From a virus: a DNA stretch of 21,449 nt. The position numbers and the translations under genes are program-made. Below are positions 1,605 to 21,108 of the stretch, one piece after another (positions within the stretch are counted from its first letter, which is position 1; the number at the start of each line of letters is the position of its first letter). The notes under the pieces were generated by a model, which worked only from the letters and a program-made list of their open reading frames with translations, had not been told where the DNA came from and did not search any database. The stretch lies in the IMG/VR virus record IMGVR_UViG_3300036770_004167, positions 1 to 21,449 of that record; one strand, written 5' to 3'.

Positions 1605-3005
1605 ATGAGCAACGCACACACGCAACGCTTCCCTGTCGACGCCGAGCGACACGTCCTCGCCTCCGCCTTCTGCGACCAAGACTGGCTGGCCACCGCCCGC
1701 CACGAGCTCGAGCCGCGCCACTTCTCCGAGCCTGTCCACCGCATCCTCTGGGAGGCCGTCCTTGCGACCTACGCCGACGGCGCGCCGGCCGACGAGATTA
1801 GCGTCCTCGAGCACCTCCGCCGAGACGGCAACGTGGACGCGGTCGGGGGCGTGGCCGGCGTCAACTCCATAAGCTCGACCCTGTACGCGCCCAACCCGAA
1901 CGTCCGCCGCTGGCAGGAACAGGTCGTCGAGGGTCACAAGCTGCGCAGCCTCTCGTCCGCCCTCGAGCGCCTCAAGCAGATGTCCGACGCCTCGGTCGTC
2001 TCCGCCGAGGAGATAGCCCGCGAGGCCGCCGCCATAGCCGACCAGGCAGGCCACCGTCGCAAGCCCGGCGACTCCGGCCCCCAGCGTTTCGACTGGCGGC
2101 AGATGCTAACCTTCGACCCCAAGCAGGACCCCGACTGCATCTTCGGCGACCGGTGGCTCTCCCGAGGCCACTCCGCGATGTTCATCGCCGGCACAGGCGT
2201 CGGCAAGTCGACCTTCATCAACGGCGCCGCCTGCCACTGGGCGCTCGGCAAGGACTACTTCGGCCTGCGTCCCAAGGTCGGCCCGCTCCGAACCCTCATC
2301 GTGCAAAGCGAGAACGACCAGTCGGACACGGCGGAGACGGTCCAGGGCGCCCTGCACGGCATGGGCATACCCCTCGGCTCCGAGACCGCCGACCAGATCG
2401 GCGAGCGCGTCGCCTTCTTCCGCGAGTCCGTCCGCACCGGCGAGGAGTTCGCCAAGGTCCTTCGCGGCCTCATCCTCGACCACCGAGCCGACGTCACGGT
2501 AATCGACCCGGTTCTCGGTTTCAGCGGAATAGACATGACCAAGCAGGACCAGCTCTCCCGATGGCTCCGAGGCATCCTCCAGCCCATCCTCTCCGAGACG
2601 CGCACCCTGCTCTTCAACGTCCACCACACGAACAAGCCGCGCCCGGCCTCCGAGTCCGCCGTCCTCAACTTCGACAACATGGCCTATCTGGGCGCGGGCG
2701 GCGCCGACCTCGCCAACTGGCACAGGTCCACCCTCTCGCTCTTCAAGGACCCCACCCCCGACGGCGAGGACGAGCAGCCGCACTACTCCCTCATCGCCGG
2801 CAAGCGCGGGGGCCGCTCCGGCCTCACCGACAGCCAGGGGAACTTCACCCGCGTCGTCCGCCTCCGGCACTCCCGCACCCCGGGCATCGTCCGCTGGGAA
2901 AGGCGCACCGACGACCTCGCCATCCCCGCCGCCAGCCCGACCCCATCGAAATCGTATTCTAAGGCCTCTGGACACCCTAGGGGCGGTCCTACCCTTCCCG
3001 CCTAG
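1605..3005 (+). CDS. replicative helicase: DnaB-N domain plus RepA-like ATPase
   Basis: A 466-residue protein. Residues about 8-110 resemble the DnaB N-terminal domain (ERHVLASAF...F..P.HR.I..A, then LE.LRR). Residues about 160-435 are a RecA-fold ATPase of the RSF1010 RepA/AAA_25 type, with Walker A GTGVGKST (196-203), Walker B VTVIDP (297-302) and the HHTNK motif (340-344). It should form a hexamer that unwinds DNA at the phage replication fork. The leader before ATG 1605 is C-rich with no SD. The last about 22 residues are low-complexity and basic, and the overlapping +1 frame stops at 2962, so the true C-terminus is less certain. It is followed by a possible origin region. Confidence 0.85.
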   Translation: MSNAHTQRFPVDAERHVLASAFCDQDWLATARHELEPRHFSEPVHRILWEAVLATYADGAPADEISVLEHLRRDGNVDAVGGVAGVNSISSTLYAPNPNVRRWQEQVVEGHKLRSLSSALERLKQMSDASVVSAEEIAREAAAIADQAGHRRKPGDSGPQRFDWRQMLTFDPKQDPDCIFGDRWLSRGHSAMFIAGTGVGKSTFINGAACHWALGKDYFGLRPKVGPLRTLIVQSENDQSDTAETVQGALHGMGIPLGSETADQIGERVAFFRESVRTGEEFAKVLRGLILDHRADVTVIDPVLGFSGIDMTKQDQLSRWLRGILQPILSETRTLLFNVHHTNKPRPASESAVLNFDNMAYLGAGGADLANWHRSTLSLFKDPTPDGEDEQPHYSLIAGKRGGRSGLTDSQGNFTRVVRLRHSRTPGIVRWERRTDDLAIPAASPTPSKSYSKASGHPRGGPTLPA

Positions 3006-8950: not shown

Positions 8951-9754
8951 ATGCGCTTCCTTCGCAACGCCCTAAGCGGCCGAGAGCCGCTCCTCCTCGA
9001 GCCCTCCCGGGCCGTCGACCACGCCCGCCAATGCGAGAAGGTCGGCTTCACCGACGCTATCGAGATGATTTTCGGCAAGGCGCCGCAGGCCTACGTCGAG
9101 GACGGCGTGGCTGTGATACCTGTCGCCGGCGTGATCGGCAAGGGTCTCTCGGCGTTTGACCGCATGACCGGCGGCTTCGACCTCGAGCAGCTCGCCCAGG
9201 ACATCGAGGCGGCCAAGTCTAACCCCGAGGTCAAGGCCGTTATCTTCAAGGTCAACTCCCCCGGCGGGACGGTGACTGGCGTCGAGGAAGCCGGGAACCT
9301 CATCGCCAGCCTCGGCAAGCCCACCTTCGCCTTCACGGACGGAGAGATGGCCAGCGCCGCATACTGGCTCGGCTCGCAGGCCGACCGCGTGGTCGTCACG
9401 CCCTCCTCGTCCGTCGGCTCCGTCGGCGTCTACTCGGTCTACTACGACTTCCGCGAGGCTCTCGAGTCCGAGGGCATCAAGGCCAAGGTCTTCTCCGCAG
9501 GCACCTACAAGGGCATGGGGATTTACGGAACCTCGCTAACGCCCGAGCAGGAGGCCTTCCTGCAGGCCGACGTCGTCGCGATCTGGGACGACTTCAAGGC
9601 CGCCGTCACCCGCAAGCGGTCGATGGTCAAGCCCGAGGACATGGAGGCCCAGGTCTTCTCCGGCAAGGTCGCCGCGCAGAAGGGCCTCGCCACCGGACTC
9701 GTCAACTCCTTCTCCGAGCTGCTCTCCGCCGTCAAGCAGGCGGTCGCCGCCTGA
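8951..9754 (+). CDS. S49 family head maturation protease (lambda GpC-like)
   Basis: A 267-residue serine protease of the SppA/SohB fold. Visible parts are the oxyanion-hole segment NSPGG (102-106), the nucleophile Ser135 in GEMASAAYWLGS, and the general-base Lys187 in AGTYKGMG. The strand GSVGVYSVYYD (156-166) is typical of the family. It should cleave scaffold and portal during prohead maturation. Lambda C carries the scaffold Nu3 at its own 3' end; here the protease ends soon after the catalytic domain, and the scaffold-like sequence lies in the next gene. The leader before ATG 8951 is C-rich with no SD. Confidence 0.9.
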   Translation: MRFLRNALSGREPLLLEPSRAVDHARQCEKVGFTDAIEMIFGKAPQAYVEDGVAVIPVAGVIGKGLSAFDRMTGGFDLEQLAQDIEAAKSNPEVKAVIFKVNSPGGTVTGVEEAGNLIASLGKPTFAFTDGEMASAAYWLGSQADRVVVTPSSSVGSVGVYSVYYDFREALESEGIKAKVFSAGTYKGMGIYGTSLTPEQEAFLQADVVAIWDDFKAAVTRKRSMVKPEDMEAQVFSGKVAAQKGLATGLVNSFSELLSAVKQAVAA

Positions 9755-10623
9755 TGCCCCGCGTCGTCTCCGACATCGACGGCACCGTGCTCGAGGACGG
9801 CCAGCCTGTGCAGGCCGTGGTCGACTACATCAAGGCGAACTCCGAGGAGGTCGTCTTCCTTACCGCCCGCCCCGAGTCGGAACGCGGCAGGACGGAGGCG
9901 GACCTCGGGCGCGTGGGCATCGAGTACGAGCGCCTGATAATGGCGCCCGACGACCTGTCGATGCCTGTCGCAGAGTTCAAGGCCGAGGAGGTCAAGAAGA
10001 TGCTCGAGGACGACATGCGGGTCGACGAGTTCATCGACGACAACGCCGACAACCGCCGCGCGGTCGAGGCCCTGGGCGTAAAGGTCACGGACCCCAAGCA
10101 GATCGGCGAGCCCGGCGACGATTCCGCCTCCGCTTGGGCCGGCGCGTTTTCCGCCCCGCTCATCTTTAGAAACATGGAACCCAACCTCGCGAATCTCCAG
10201 CAGACCCCCGAGCAGCTCGCCGCCGACCTCGCGTCCAAGGCCGCCGCCCTCTCCGCCGAGTCCGCCGCCAAGGACGCCGAACTGACCGCCGTCCGCCAGT
10301 CCCTCGCCGACGCCACCGCCGCCCACGAGGCCGCGCTGGCCGCCGTCACCGCCGAGCTCGAGACCGTCAAGGCCCAGCTCGCCGACGCCCTCTCCAAGGC
10401 CGCCTCGCTCGAGGAAGCCAAGGTCGACGCCGCCGACGAGGCCGCGAAGCTCGCCTCCCAGATGGGCATCGCCCCGCTGGCCGCGACCCCCGCCGCCGAG
10501 CCCGAGGCCATCAAGCCCGAGAACATCCTCGCGAAGTACGAGGCCCTCTCCGGCGACGAGCGCCAGGCCTTCTACCGCGCGAACAAGCGCGCCATCTTCG
10601 CCGCCCGAAACAAGGCCGACTGA
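9754..10623 (+). CDS. HAD-phosphatase-like domain fused to scaffold-like coiled coil
   Basis: A 289-residue two-part protein in the scaffold position. Residues 1-118 look like a HAD hydrolase: DIDGTV with Asp7 and Asp9 (motif I), FLTAR with Thr37 (motif II), a possible motif III Lys near 76-82, and EFIDDNADN (92-100) as the acidic motif IV. T4 polynucleotide kinase 3'-phosphatase is the nearest comparison I can suggest. Residues about 142-289 are Ala/Glu-rich coiled coil ending in a basic C-terminus (FYRANKRAIFAARNKAD), typical of scaffolds. It starts in a TGATG overlap with the protease. An internal ATG at 10174, with its own upstream element, may release the scaffold alone. Activity is not proven. 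Confidence 0.75.
   Translation: MPRVVSDIDGTVLEDGQPVQAVVDYIKANSEEVVFLTARPESERGRTEADLGRVGIEYERLIMAPDDLSMPVAEFKAEEVKKMLEDDMRVDEFIDDNADNRRAVEALGVKVTDPKQIGEPGDDSASAWAGAFSAPLIFRNMEPNLANLQQTPEQLAADLASKAAALSAESAAKDAELTAVRQSLADATAAHEAALAAVTAELETVKAQLADALSKAASLEEAKVDAADEAAKLASQMGIAPLAATPAAEPEAIKPENILAKYEALSGDERQAFYRANKRAIFAARNKAD
10147..10173 (+). promoter_or_regulatory. TTTTCC upstream element, copy E (intragenic)
   Basis: TTTTCC at 10147-10152 lies 27 bases before the internal ATG 10174. The 25 bases 10146-10170 match 13381-13405 (copy C) at 21 positions, although this copy sits inside a coding region. That argues for a conserved signal driving the nested gene. Confidence 0.55.
10174..10623 (+). CDS. 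nested scaffold protein (internal start)
   Basis: A proposed 149-residue product starting at ATG 10174, in frame with and inside the HAD-scaffold gene. It would contain only the scaffold part: LQQTPEQLAADLASKAAAL and following heptad-like Ala/Glu/Lys repeats to about residue 95, then a Pro/Ala linker and a basic helical C-terminus that could contact the capsid protein. Lambda makes Nu3 in the same way, from an internal start within C. Support comes from the HAD/scaffold boundary at this Met and from the upstream element at 10146-10170. Whether the long form is also made, or only the short form assembles, cannot be seen. Confidence 0.5.
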   Translation: MEPNLANLQQTPEQLAADLASKAAALSAESAAKDAELTAVRQSLADATAAHEAALAAVTAELETVKAQLADALSKAASLEEAKVDAADEAAKLASQMGIAPLAATPAAEPEAIKPENILAKYEALSGDERQAFYRANKRAIFAARNKAD

Positions 10624-10657: not shown

Positions 10658-11512
10658 ATGTCCAACACCATCGACACCGCTCTGATCGTGGACTCCGTCA
10701 CGGAAGCCACGCAGACCAAGCTCGCGAACCGCCTCGCCGCCCTCAACCTCTTCTCGACCGACTTCTCGTCCGACGTGAAGCGCGCCGGGGACGTCGTCCA
10801 GGTCGCCCTCGCCACCGCCGGCTCCACCACCCAGGTCAACCCCACCAGCTTCAACAGCATCGGCGGGTCCACCCTCGACAACGCCGCCGTCACCCTCGAG
10901 CACATCTACCAGCCCTTCGGCCTGGCCTACGCCGACATCAAGAACGGCATCCGCCTCGAGCGCCTCATCCAAGTCAACGTCGACGCCTTTGCCGACAAGA
11001 TCTGGGAGAAGGTCACCACCCACGTCACCGTCGCCAACTACGGCGCCGCCGTCTCCACTGGCGCTGACTCCACGTTCACCGTCGGCTCCGCTGGCGTCAA
11101 GGCCCTCTGGGCTGGCGTGAGCAAGTCCGGCCGCAAGGGCCTCGTGGCCAACGCCGGGATCTACTCCAACTTCATCCCGACCTCGACGACCAGCCTGCCC
11201 CTGCAGGCCGGCGCCTACGGCTTCGACAACGGCGTCCACTACGCGACCTCCTTCTCCGGCGAGACCAAGCTGGCCGCTTTCGCCTGCTCGCCCGAGGCCG
11301 TCGCGATCGCCAGCTCGGCGCCCGCCCTCGACGGCATCGCCGGCGACCTCCTCGTCAACGAGGCCATCGCCCTTCCCAACCTCGGCATGACCGCCTTCTG
11401 GACCGTCTGGTCCGACAAGTCGACCCGCAACATCATCGGCGCGGTCGAGGTCATGTTCGGCTCGGCGCCCGGCATCAAGACCGGCACGATGGCGCTCGCC
11501 CTCAACCCCTGA
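10658..11512 (+). CDS. major capsid protein, HK97-fold type
   Basis: A 284-residue protein directly after the scaffold and before the connector genes, the usual capsid place. The N-terminal helix (TEATQTKLANRLAAL), the GDVVQVALAT strand, the EHIYQPFGLAYADIKNG segment and the central helix RLIQVNVDAFADKIWEKVT match the layout of small HK97-fold coats. The C-terminal half is beta-rich (TAFWTVWSDKSTRNIIGAVEVMFG). It should form the icosahedral shell. No protease cleavage site is evident, so processing by the S49 enzyme probably concerns the scaffold. ATG 10658 follows a C-rich leader without SD, and a strong terminator follows the stop. Confidence 0.75.
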   Translation: MSNTIDTALIVDSVTEATQTKLANRLAALNLFSTDFSSDVKRAGDVVQVALATAGSTTQVNPTSFNSIGGSTLDNAAVTLEHIYQPFGLAYADIKNGIRLERLIQVNVDAFADKIWEKVTTHVTVANYGAAVSTGADSTFTVGSAGVKALWAGVSKSGRKGLVANAGIYSNFIPTSTTSLPLQAGAYGFDNGVHYATSFSGETKLAAFACSPEAVAIASSAPALDGIAGDLLVNEAIALPNLGMTAFWTVWSDKSTRNIIGAVEVMFGSAPGIKTGTMALALNP

Positions 11513-11533
11513 GGTTGAGTCGAGTCCCGAACG

Positions 11534-11562
11534 CAGCCCCCCTCACCGGGGGCTGTTTTTTT
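11534..11562 (+). terminator. intrinsic terminator after the capsid gene
   Basis: CAGCCCCC 11534-11541 pairs perfectly with GGGGGCTG 11548-11555 (loop of six), followed by seven T at 11556-11562. It ends the head operon 22 bases after the capsid stop. Copy B of the TTTTCC element begins seven bases later, so transcription probably restarts here. Confidence 0.9.
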
Positions 11563-11568
11563 GGCAAG

Positions 11569-19303: not shown

Positions 19304-19645
19304 ATGCCCACCATCTACGAGCCCCAGTTCGAGCAGATCGCCGGCGCCGACTTCTACGCGACCGCCGTCTACGCGCCCCCGGTCGGCGGGCTGGCGAACC
19401 TCATCGGCTGCACCCTCACGACCTCCATCCAGGACACGGTCGGCACCGAGCACGAGCTGGTCGCCTCGATTGACGTCACCGGCCTCAACCTCACCTTCTC
19501 CGCCTCCGAGACCGAGACCTGGAAGTGGGCCGGCGGGCTGGCCTACTGGGACATCAACGTCTCCAAGGACGGCCTGTCGATTTACACGAACAAGATTCCC
19601 TTCACGGTCACCCGCCCTGTCACCACGCCGCCCTTCGCGAAATGA
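19304..19645 (+). CDS. small fibre-associated protein of unknown function
   Basis: A 113-residue protein starting six bases after the previous stop. It has a beta-rich pattern (FEQIAGADFYATAVYAPP, HELVASIDVTGLNLTFSASETETWKWAGGLAYWDINVSKDG, IPFTVTRPV) that is similar in style to small baseplate-upper or fibre-attachment proteins, though I cannot name a family. The end overlaps the fibre gene in an ATGA, so the two are coupled. A role as adaptor between the baseplate and the fibre is inferred. Confidence 0.5.
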   Translation: MPTIYEPQFEQIAGADFYATAVYAPPVGGLANLIGCTLTTSIQDTVGTEHELVASIDVTGLNLTFSASETETWKWAGGLAYWDINVSKDGLSIYTNKIPFTVTRPVTTPPFAK

Positions 19646-21108
19646 GCCTCACGATCACCGTCAACGGCGGGGGCACCTTCACCGCTGGCATCACGAGCGG
19701 GCCCGCCACCTTCACCGCGAACTTCGGCTCGGTCCCCGGCCCGCAGGGTGACACAGGCCCCGCAGGCCCGACCGGCCCCGCAGGAGCCGCCGGCACGGCC
19801 GCCTCCGTCACCGTCGGCTCGGTCGTCACGCTCGGCCCCGGAGACCCCGCGACAGTCGTCAACTCCGGCACCAGCTCGGCGGCCATCCTCGACTTCGGAA
19901 TCCCCGAGGGCATCCAAGGCGCGCCCGGCGTCGTCGCCGCCACCGCCCCTCTCAGCTACACGGCGGGCACCCAGACGGTCAGCATCGACACCTCCGGCTT
20001 CCTGCTCAAGGCCGACAACCTCTCGGGGCTTGCGAACCTCGCTACCTCCCGCACCAACCTCGGGCTGGGGACGACGGACACGGTAAGCTTCGGCGAGGTT
20101 CGCATCCCCTCGCCCGACAATCACGCCAAGCTGGACGTGTACATGTGGCGTCCGTTCAGCGCCGCCCACGGCGACTTTGGCATCGAGTACCGCGGGGACA
20201 AGATCAAGTTCGCCGACGCCAGCGAGCAGACGAGCGCCTATGTCGGAGGCGACCTCAAGGCGGCCTCCAACCTGTCCGACCTCGCCTCGGCCTCGACCGC
20301 CCGCACGAACCTCGATGTCTATTCCAAGTCGGAATCGGACGGACTAGTCCCCGACGCCTCGACGACCGCCAAGGGCAAGGTCGAGCTCGCGACCGACGCG
20401 GAGGCCGTGGCGGGGACAAGCTCCACGCTGGCGGTCACGCCCGCCGCCCTCCGTGCGATGGTCACCTATCCGGGCCTCACCGCCATCACGACCTACTCGC
20501 TCACCGCCGCGACCAGCGGGGCAAGCGCATCGTCCTTTAGGCAAGGAACGAGCAACGGCTGGGTTGTTCGAGGCCCGACCACGGCAATAGGCTACGCCGT
20601 CGGCAAAACAGGGTTGGTCAACAGCCGCAGGGGCGGCGAGTTCACATCCCGCCTCGATTGGTCGAAGCCTTGCGCCATCACCGCCCGCTGCACGCTCAAC
20701 CCCAACGGAACCATCGACGCCAACTCAATCTTCCGGATGTCGGTCGGAAAAGGCACAGCCGACAACGCAGGGGACATCTCGAGCGGTGACGGCATTCAAA
20801 TCAAGGTCGCAGGCGGCGGGGCCATCCAGCTCCTAGCATGTGCTAGCGGAACGGTCACCACCGTAACCTCCTCCTTCACGCCGGTCAACGACGAGACGTT
20901 CGATGTCGGCATCCATTCCGACGGCAGCGGCAATGTGACCCTTTATGTCAACGGCTCGTCCGTCGCCACCACAACCGGCGGCCCTACCACCTCCTCTGCC
21001 CTGGCCTACAACAACGCCTGGCACATCGAGGTCGAGAACATCAACACGCTGACCGACTCCTTCGCCGCCTACTGCGTCAACAACGCCTACATTCACTCCG
21101 AAGGCTGA
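19642..21108 (+). CDS. collagen-like tail fibre with C-terminal lectin-like domain
   Basis: A 488-residue probable receptor-binding fibre. Residues 1-30 are an N-terminal attachment part. A G-x-y collagen-like stretch spans 33-51. The segment VTVGSVVTLGPGDPATVVNSG...ILDFGIPEGIQGAPG (about 57-96) is common in phage fibres. Repeats of the NLSDLA...ARTNL type occur at 126-142 and 210-225, and TTAKGKVELATDAEAVAGTSSTLAVTPAAL (241-270) is a typical fibre repeat. From about 290 a beta-sandwich follows, with GNVTLYVNGSSVATT (430-444) like a laminin-G or concanavalin fold. DNA for this last part is AT-richer, suggesting exchange. The start is ATG 19642 in an ATGA overlap. Confidence 0.85.
   Translation: MSLTITVNGGGTFTAGITSGPATFTANFGSVPGPQGDTGPAGPTGPAGAAGTAASVTVGSVVTLGPGDPATVVNSGTSSAAILDFGIPEGIQGAPGVVAATAPLSYTAGTQTVSIDTSGFLLKADNLSGLANLATSRTNLGLGTTDTVSFGEVRIPSPDNHAKLDVYMWRPFSAAHGDFGIEYRGDKIKFADASEQTSAYVGGDLKAASNLSDLASASTARTNLDVYSKSESDGLVPDASTTAKGKVELATDAEAVAGTSSTLAVTPAALRAMVTYPGLTAITTYSLTAATSGASASSFRQGTSNGWVVRGPTTAIGYAVGKTGLVNSRRGGEFTSRLDWSKPCAITARCTLNPNGTIDANSIFRMSVGKGTADNAGDISSGDGIQIKVAGGGAIQLLACASGTVTTVTSSFTPVNDETFDVGIHSDGSGNVTLYVNGSSVATTTGGPTTSSALAYNNAWHIEVENINTLTDSFAAYCVNNAYIHSEG

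Follow-up and report, generated by a model that had tools for sequence, protein, structure and literature searches.

A PNKP-like phosphatase domain on a phage scaffold protein with an apparent nested start

In phage lambda, the scaffolding protein Nu3 begins at an in-frame internal start of gene C, which makes it the model for a nested scaffold start, and in engineered phage P22 enzymes are fused to the scaffold for capsid loading. The lambda C product is an S49 peptidase and the nu3 product the scaffolding protein (part of PMC10695390), and MuF polymorphic toxins (part of PMC5576092) and polyvalent proteins (part of PMC5512222) carry enzymatic domains that are linked to phage head proteins and are proposed to be packaged and injected. 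Here we analyse a HAD-scaffold fusion gene in the window, by which we mean the whole of the 21,449-base IMG/VR virus record IMGVR_UViG_3300036770_004167, a linear fragment. The gene joins a HAD domain, similar to the 3'-phosphatase of polynucleotide kinase-phosphatase (PNKP), to a scaffold. Like the engineered P22 proteins, its product is an enzyme-scaffold fusion; unlike them, it is natural, widespread in environmental phages and equipped with an apparent internal start. Like the MuF and polyvalent proteins, it combines an enzymatic domain and a head protein in one polypeptide, as read from the gene; unlike them, the carriers are a scaffold and a prohead protease, and neither 'scaffold' nor 'phosphatase' occurs in the main texts of PMC5576092 and PMC5512222. 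Among titles and abstract openings of open-licence papers we recognised no HAD-scaffold or HAD-prohead-protease fusion. Phage head proteins that bear enzymes have been described before; a PNKP-like phosphatase on a scaffold that has an apparent nested start, and on an S78 protease, appears to be new. We lean, if modestly, toward the reading that the gene supplies a scaffold with an optional phosphatase in two products, which co-assemble in the prohead core and carry the HAD domain into the prohead.

A PNKP-like HAD domain ahead of a scaffold

The fusion gene and the genes on either side of it comprise the following features.

9754..10623, + strand: HAD-scaffold fusion gene, 289 aa; a single open reading frame (ORF) between the S49 protease and capsid genes
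9754..10107, + strand: cap-less HAD phosphatase domain that resembles the PNKP 3'-phosphatase, residues 1-118 (family, fold and conservation)
10108..10173, + strand: linker, residues 119-140, variable and of low confidence in the structure model (residues 122-142; leader comparison)
10174..10176, + strand: in-frame ATG of M141, where bare scaffold is proposed to start (Met conservation, open RNA)
10174..10623, + strand: scaffold domain, 149 aa if begun at M141 (structure model; homologous stand-alone genes)
8951..9754, + strand: S49-family prohead protease (head maturation protease; PF01343, E 2.1e-26; PHROG 53, E 1.7e-54)
10658..11512, + strand: putative major capsid protein (position; homologues match PHROG 283/544, major head protein)

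A preliminary description had read the motifs DIDGT, FLTAR and IDDNADN as those of a HAD hydrolase fused N-terminally to a scaffold, in a gene flanked by those for protease and capsid. The motifs lie where claimed, at residues 7-11, 35-39 and 94-100, and Pfam, PHROG and the predicted fold agree on a HAD hydrolase; gene reading, family matches and structure prediction likewise bear out the arrangement. The start codon overlaps the S49 stop codon (TGATG, 9752-9756), 34 bases separate the stop from the capsid gene, and the frame through HAD and scaffold is open in all 48 distinct HAD-scaffold genes, which rules out a frameshift or mis-called fusion. The best Pfam family is Acid_phosphat_B (HAD subfamily IIIB; E 3.8e-7, 30.3 bits vs. 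a cut-off of 27), with a match that spans only profile positions 128-206 of 230; the PHROG matches are to polynucleotide kinase families 415 (E 6.8e-16) and 505. An AlphaFold2 (AF2) model of the 289-residue protein, built from 44 aligned relatives, has a HAD Rossmann-like fold at residues 1-110 (block-mean predicted local distance difference test score, pLDDT, 94-98), a linker at residues 122-142 with pLDDT <50, a long helix at residues 152-236 and three C-terminal helices within residues 255-288. The HAD fold expected from structure prediction is thus obtained, and its best PDB match by Foldseek is the T4 Pnkp 3'-phosphatase (5uj0, E 1.5e-5).

Comparison of structures and profiles places the domain nearest to the phosphatases that act on nucleic-acid ends. 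VIA-align superimposes it on T4 Pnkp over 115 residues at 1.8 A (Z 17.2), with Z of 16.1 for Pnkp1, 14.3 for Nir2, 10.3 for mammalian PNKP and 10.4-10.5 for AphA. A profile of 33 HAD domains matches Pnkp1 (E 2.8e-10), P4 acid phosphatase (1.2e-4) and T4 Pnkp (2.3e-4), and the HAD stretch TxR-x-E-x-x-R-x-x-T-x-x-x-L aligns with SGRENAYREPTERFL of Pnkp1. Likenesses to T4 Pnkp and Pnkp1 thus include, besides the fold, the DxD of motif I, the SGR/TNR...R..T signature, the motif III Lys and the motif IV acid; the differences are that here a prohead scaffold is fused in place of a kinase domain and that the second motif IV acid is often Asn. Because the fold is similar to those of T4 Pnkp and Pnkp1, the chemistry is most likely removal of 3'-terminal phosphates from polynucleotides, which fits the earlier suggestion of a phosphatase for nucleic-acid ends. 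A complete PNKP is ruled out, there being no kinase domain. The domain might instead act on small molecules, as a class B or C acid phosphatase or a nucleotidase does. Acid_phosphat_B is, after all, its best Pfam family, and the class C acid phosphatase P4 not only matches the HAD profile but has a similar TNR...T motif; the fold, however, is much nearer to T4 Pnkp and Pnkp1 than to AphA, and the R-x-E-x-x-R-x-x-T pattern is common to HAD and Pnkp1. We regard action on small molecules as doubtful, though a serious candidate.

The catalytic residues are conserved. In a set of 67 distinct HAD domains (43 scaffold-fused and 24 other; 87 before removal of duplicates), D7, D9, T37, R39 and T47 are each present in 67/67, R44 in 66/67 and K76 in 65/67 (one gap, one Leu), and position 95 is Asp in 43/43 scaffold fusions and Asp in 13, Glu in 9 and a gap in 2 of the others. 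The catalytic Asp pair is therefore conserved in relatives, as the preliminary description required, and the window HAD has the set D7, D9, T37, K76 and D95 (plus D96), with the same DD in motif IV that T4 Pnkp and Pnkp1 show in the alignment. Pooled ratios of nonsynonymous to synonymous polymorphism (pN/pS) come to 0.243 (HAD), 0.176 (S49), 0.185 (scaffold) and 0.233 (capsid) over 162 close pairs from 41 loci that were chosen on S49 divergence and are not independent of one another. Earlier dN/dS medians (S49 0.379, HAD 0.393, scaffold 0.681, major capsid protein 0.973) were discarded because synonymous sites were saturated. Given conserved catalytic residues and these pN/pS values, the HAD domain is probably a working enzyme, and the activity predicted for it is most likely that of a Mg-dependent phosphatase. 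A chance motif is ruled out by the family matches, the catalytic conservation and the AF2 fold.

Could the domain be a purely structural one, serving dimerisation or core packing with no enzymatic function, as the preliminary description had also allowed? Pnkp1 and T4 Pnkp form dimers through their phosphatase domains, and mutations at the T4 Pnkp dimer interface abolish activity (part of PMC4411300); V22, present in 43/43 scaffold fusions, aligns with a Val of the Pnkp1 interface. Conservation of the complete catalytic set disfavours a structural role, as does the fact that most cassettes assemble with no HAD, and we consider such a role most improbable. The invariance of V22, taken with dimerisation of Pnkp1 and T4 Pnkp, suggests by analogy that dimerisation driven by the scaffold could also promote phosphatase activity.

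An in-frame ATG at the domain junction

The AF2 model and the reading of the locus predict a coiled-coil scaffold protein between the S49 protease and capsid genes, and in 40 loci a stand-alone homologue occupies the place between the S49 gene and the capsid gene, with bare scaffold genes opening MTIEEQL..., MKKTIEEVL... or MKPTIEELL.... A Met at the junction, equivalent to the bare-scaffold start, is present in 48/48 distinct HAD+scaffold proteins, though the linker that precedes it is variable; to be counted, a Met had to lie after HAD ends and before the scaffold begins, with T-[IPLV]-E within the next 15 residues. In the window this Met is M141, and the last base of its ATG, 10176, is where the feature in the preliminary description ended.

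Two further properties of the junction point to translation initiation. We made a leader matrix from bare scaffold genes and scored it against all other codon positions of each gene. The true position ranked top in 10/35 HAD+scaffold, 5/9 NDOM+HAD+scaffold and 9/13 NDOM+scaffold sequences (NDOM being a second conserved domain, described below); the untranslated leader of bare scaffold genes is therefore recognisable as a translated linker in many fusions. The RNA around the junction Met is also open. The minimum free energy of the 40 nt around it has a mean percentile of 0.074 over the 48 genes (window 0.015), with 38/48 in the least-structured decile, and in synonymous-codon shuffles 17/48 reach p<=0.05, vs. 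7.3% of 288 control positions (window p = 0.005), counts that overstate independence because the rows are related. By eye, no clear Shine-Dalgarno sequence is seen at the capsid start of these genes either, and since such sequences are not seen, an open RNA region may mark starts. Internal initiation at M141 thus apparently yields bare as well as HAD-tagged scaffold, a proposal for which the sequence evidence is strong if not conclusive. As in lambda, the scaffold lies beside or inside an S49 protease gene and an internal start, here a proposed one, gives bare scaffold; unlike in lambda, the N-terminal partner of the scaffold is an enzyme or NDOM, not the protease.

An optional module on two prohead proteins

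Besides the internal start, our analysis adds to the preliminary description that the HAD domain is optional and that it is also fused to S78 proteases. A viral-contig scan with a three-sequence alignment (A1) returned 121 relatives, and 55 of the best 80 carry all or part of the cassette terminase-portal-S49-[NDOM]-HAD-scaffold-capsid. A scan with an S49 alignment returned 566 relatives; among the best 80, the gene after S49 encodes scaffold in 40, NDOM+scaffold in 19, HAD+scaffold in 8 and NDOM+HAD+scaffold in 3, and in the remaining loci the contig ends after HAD (1), after NDOM (1) or before any downstream module (8). HAD is therefore present in 12/72 readable S49 cassettes, one of them (L105) near-identical to the window, which rules it out as an essential head gene. 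All S49+scaffold loci pooled, a mixed sampling of 122, comprise 45 with HAD+scaffold (32 distinct proteins), 14 with NDOM+HAD+scaffold (10), 40 with bare scaffold (33), 19 with NDOM+scaffold (19) and 4 with HAD+scaffold plus a separate NDOM gene (4). Because the same cassette is found with bare, NDOM-, HAD- or NDOM-HAD-scaffold, we conclude that HAD is an add-on that a shared assembly cassette may have or lack. A tree of 92 S49 proteins requires at least 4 changes for HAD and at least 21 for NDOM; the tree is a quick one, its branches are long and its root is arbitrary, and because many rows were fetched with a HAD query the sampling is biased. A capsid-protein scan gave 20 loci: a near-identical copy, three with HAD-scaffold (L004, L005, L007) and 16 with a ClpP-type protease and no HAD.

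The same HAD domain occurs on a second prohead protein. We tested ten proteins from a weaker-scoring group of relatives. Each of the eight that combine HAD with NDOM has a Peptidase_S78 prohead protease as well (8/8; PF04586, E 2.2e-38 to 1.8e-46), with matches also to PHROG 80, head maturation protease; the other two (L083 and L078) have no S78 protease. In a Foldseek search of BFVD, ranks 1, 2, 4 and 5 are 'Prohead protease [uncultured Caudovirales phage]'. The prohead protease of Pontimonas phage phiPsal1 has NDOM and no HAD match. A collection of annotated phages contained no HAD-scaffold fusion: the window protein has matches in five records, each one in the HAD part and to a gene annotated as PNKP or phosphatase, and ten records match the L005 protein, none across 80% of it.

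Phage PNKPs are normally cytoplasmic, and the HAD domain could likewise be a cytoplasmic late-infection phosphatase, for nucleotide salvage or end repair, its fusion being accidental and most scaffold coming from the internal start. The HADs of L083 (5001-5387, 128 aa) and L078 (3894-4289, 131 aa) are stand-alone genes of the same family, not fused to head proteins, and so lend this alternative some support. The fusion frame, however, is kept in 48/48 distinct genes, and the module has been fused independently to the S78 prohead protease. For a cytoplasmic enzyme a separate gene would be easier, yet, while four HAD+scaffold loci have NDOM as a gene of its own, no S49 cassette that was read has a separate HAD gene. 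We therefore judge a cytoplasmic role unlikely and prefer prohead loading, chiefly because HAD is fused to two different prohead-internal proteins. The earlier suggestion that the domain is carried inside the prohead is in keeping with its two fusions, one group of phages having it on the scaffold and a second group on the S78 prohead protease.

NDOM, of ~100 aa, is highly conserved (RGLxWHxxGKSGDG...FPGAGAVAWALWGG) and is fused to scaffolds and S78 proteases, with copies at L005:2737-3063 and 48 further places (alignment A5). It is modelled by AF2 at pLDDT 96; neither Foldseek nor VIA-align gave a clear PDB match, which does not in itself show a new fold. Other variation concerns the proteases. 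Capsid relatives L006 and L008-L022 (50-57% identity) have a ClpP-type protease instead of S49, a displacement within the same head cassette; the scaffold profile has no match in these ClpP-type proteases, despite a scaffold-like tail by eye, and we claim none. Some S49 relatives (L108:5128-5502, L110, L111, L117, L120, L124, L125, L134, L158, L161) have a C-terminal extension of ~125 aa with four conserved Cys (CxNCxxxxGxRxCxxVxGDIDPNxxCKLW), for which Pfam HIPIP [4Fe-4S] is the best match, though below cut-off, in 4/5 tested (E 0.02-0.2); judged from sequence, the extension may be a further module brought into the prohead. In L034 and L035 (4354-4989 in each), a very Glu/Asp-rich S49 tail of ~210 aa lies upstream of HAD-scaffold. 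In L154:1-6593, minus-strand portal and terminase genes adjoin a second, plus-strand portal-S49 cassette; the contig may be chimeric or represent two phages.

Genomic setting and proposed role

Upstream of the fusion gene lie genes for a terminase large subunit (PF05876), a lambda-type portal (PF05136) and the S49 peptidase, in which S135 and K187, presumably the catalytic dyad, are invariant across 13 aligned relatives. The capsid gene itself has no family match in the Pfam/PHROG comparison; its homologues L103, L186, L024, L034 and L006 match PHROG major-head-protein families in 5/5 cases (E 4e-27 to 4e-4). Just 3' of it, at 11530-11565, a GC-rich inverted repeat with a stretch of T after it is terminator-like by eye. 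Elsewhere in the window, a calcineurin-like metallophosphoesterase gene (249-1256; PF00149, E 1.1e-6), the second phosphoesterase of the window, adjoins a DnaB-N/AAA_25 helicase-like gene (1605-3005), and an ORF at 19525-21108 with collagen-like GPAGPTGPAG repeats probably encodes, judged by eye, a tail-fibre-type protein.

Among one-genome-per-species contigs, the sole match, a contig of 28 kb with the same cassette, belongs to an uncultured Opitutae metagenome-assembled genome (MAG; L103). Within the class of this MAG, 28/286 genomes match HAD-scaffold, only the Opitutae MAG over both domains; six match over the HAD part alone and the rest over the coiled-coil part alone or nearly so, some within long unrelated ORFs. 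All seven other loci fetched from that class adjoin S49 and/or capsid genes and lack HAD (7/7); in prophage loci L186-L188, S49 and scaffold form one ORF, whereas elsewhere they are adjacent. The phage host is likely a member of Verrucomicrobiota; the MAG contig could be mis-binned.

On the reading that the phosphatase is loaded into the prohead, full HAD-linker-scaffold would be made from ATG 9754, by translation coupled to that of the protease gene, and bare scaffold from the in-frame ATG 10174. The two would co-assemble, and a fraction of the subunits would bring a Mg-dependent PNKP-like phosphatase into the prohead. During maturation the S49 protease would strip the scaffold, and the compact HAD, which is joined to it by a flexible linker, could be cut loose, remain in the head and leave together with the DNA at ejection; alternatively, HAD may act in the prohead, on nucleic-acid ends or nucleotides.

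Several observations weigh against this reading. The window HAD falls below the Pfam HAD_PNKP cut-off (17.8 vs. 27.6 bits), for which reason we file it as PNKP-like and not as a HAD_PNKP member; the S78-fused relatives L079, L081 and L084 pass that cut-off. At position 96, the place of the second motif IV acid, 29 of the 43 scaffold fusions have Asn and 14 have Asp, and because this residue is so often Asn, unlike the DD of T4 Pnkp and Pnkp1, activity is not certain. HAD is absent from 60/72 readable S49 cassettes and so is not needed for assembly. The leader of the window gene ranks only 8th of 272 positions, below 7 of 271 controls. Kinase (PF13671) and RNA ligase (PF09414) are each found in 0/9 virus records, all of them fragments, in a further difference from T4 Pnkp and Pnkp1; a full end-healing pathway is therefore not encoded in those fragments, and the remaining steps would be the host's. 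An RNA-repair operon is rejected because PF09414 occurs in 0/10 records, a weak ground since the records are fragments.

A wider proposal, speculative and on balance rather unlikely, is that scaffold and S49/S78 proteases form a modular cargo platform with swappable HAD, NDOM and perhaps Fe-S-like Cys modules, in which the internal start would set the ratio of products and protease-freed HAD would be injected to heal host-made 3'-phosphate ends, these coming from host nucleases or ribotoxins at entry. If HAD-tagged scaffold does reach the prohead, it would be a natural counterpart of the scaffold-fusion loading used for engineered capsids, with the internal start as dose control and the prohead protease as release step. 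For annotation, scaffold genes in such cassettes may hide inside larger ORFs labelled HAD hydrolase. The occurrence of the same enzyme near two unrelated prohead proteases suggests that phages repeatedly need a phosphatase inside the head or delivered from it.

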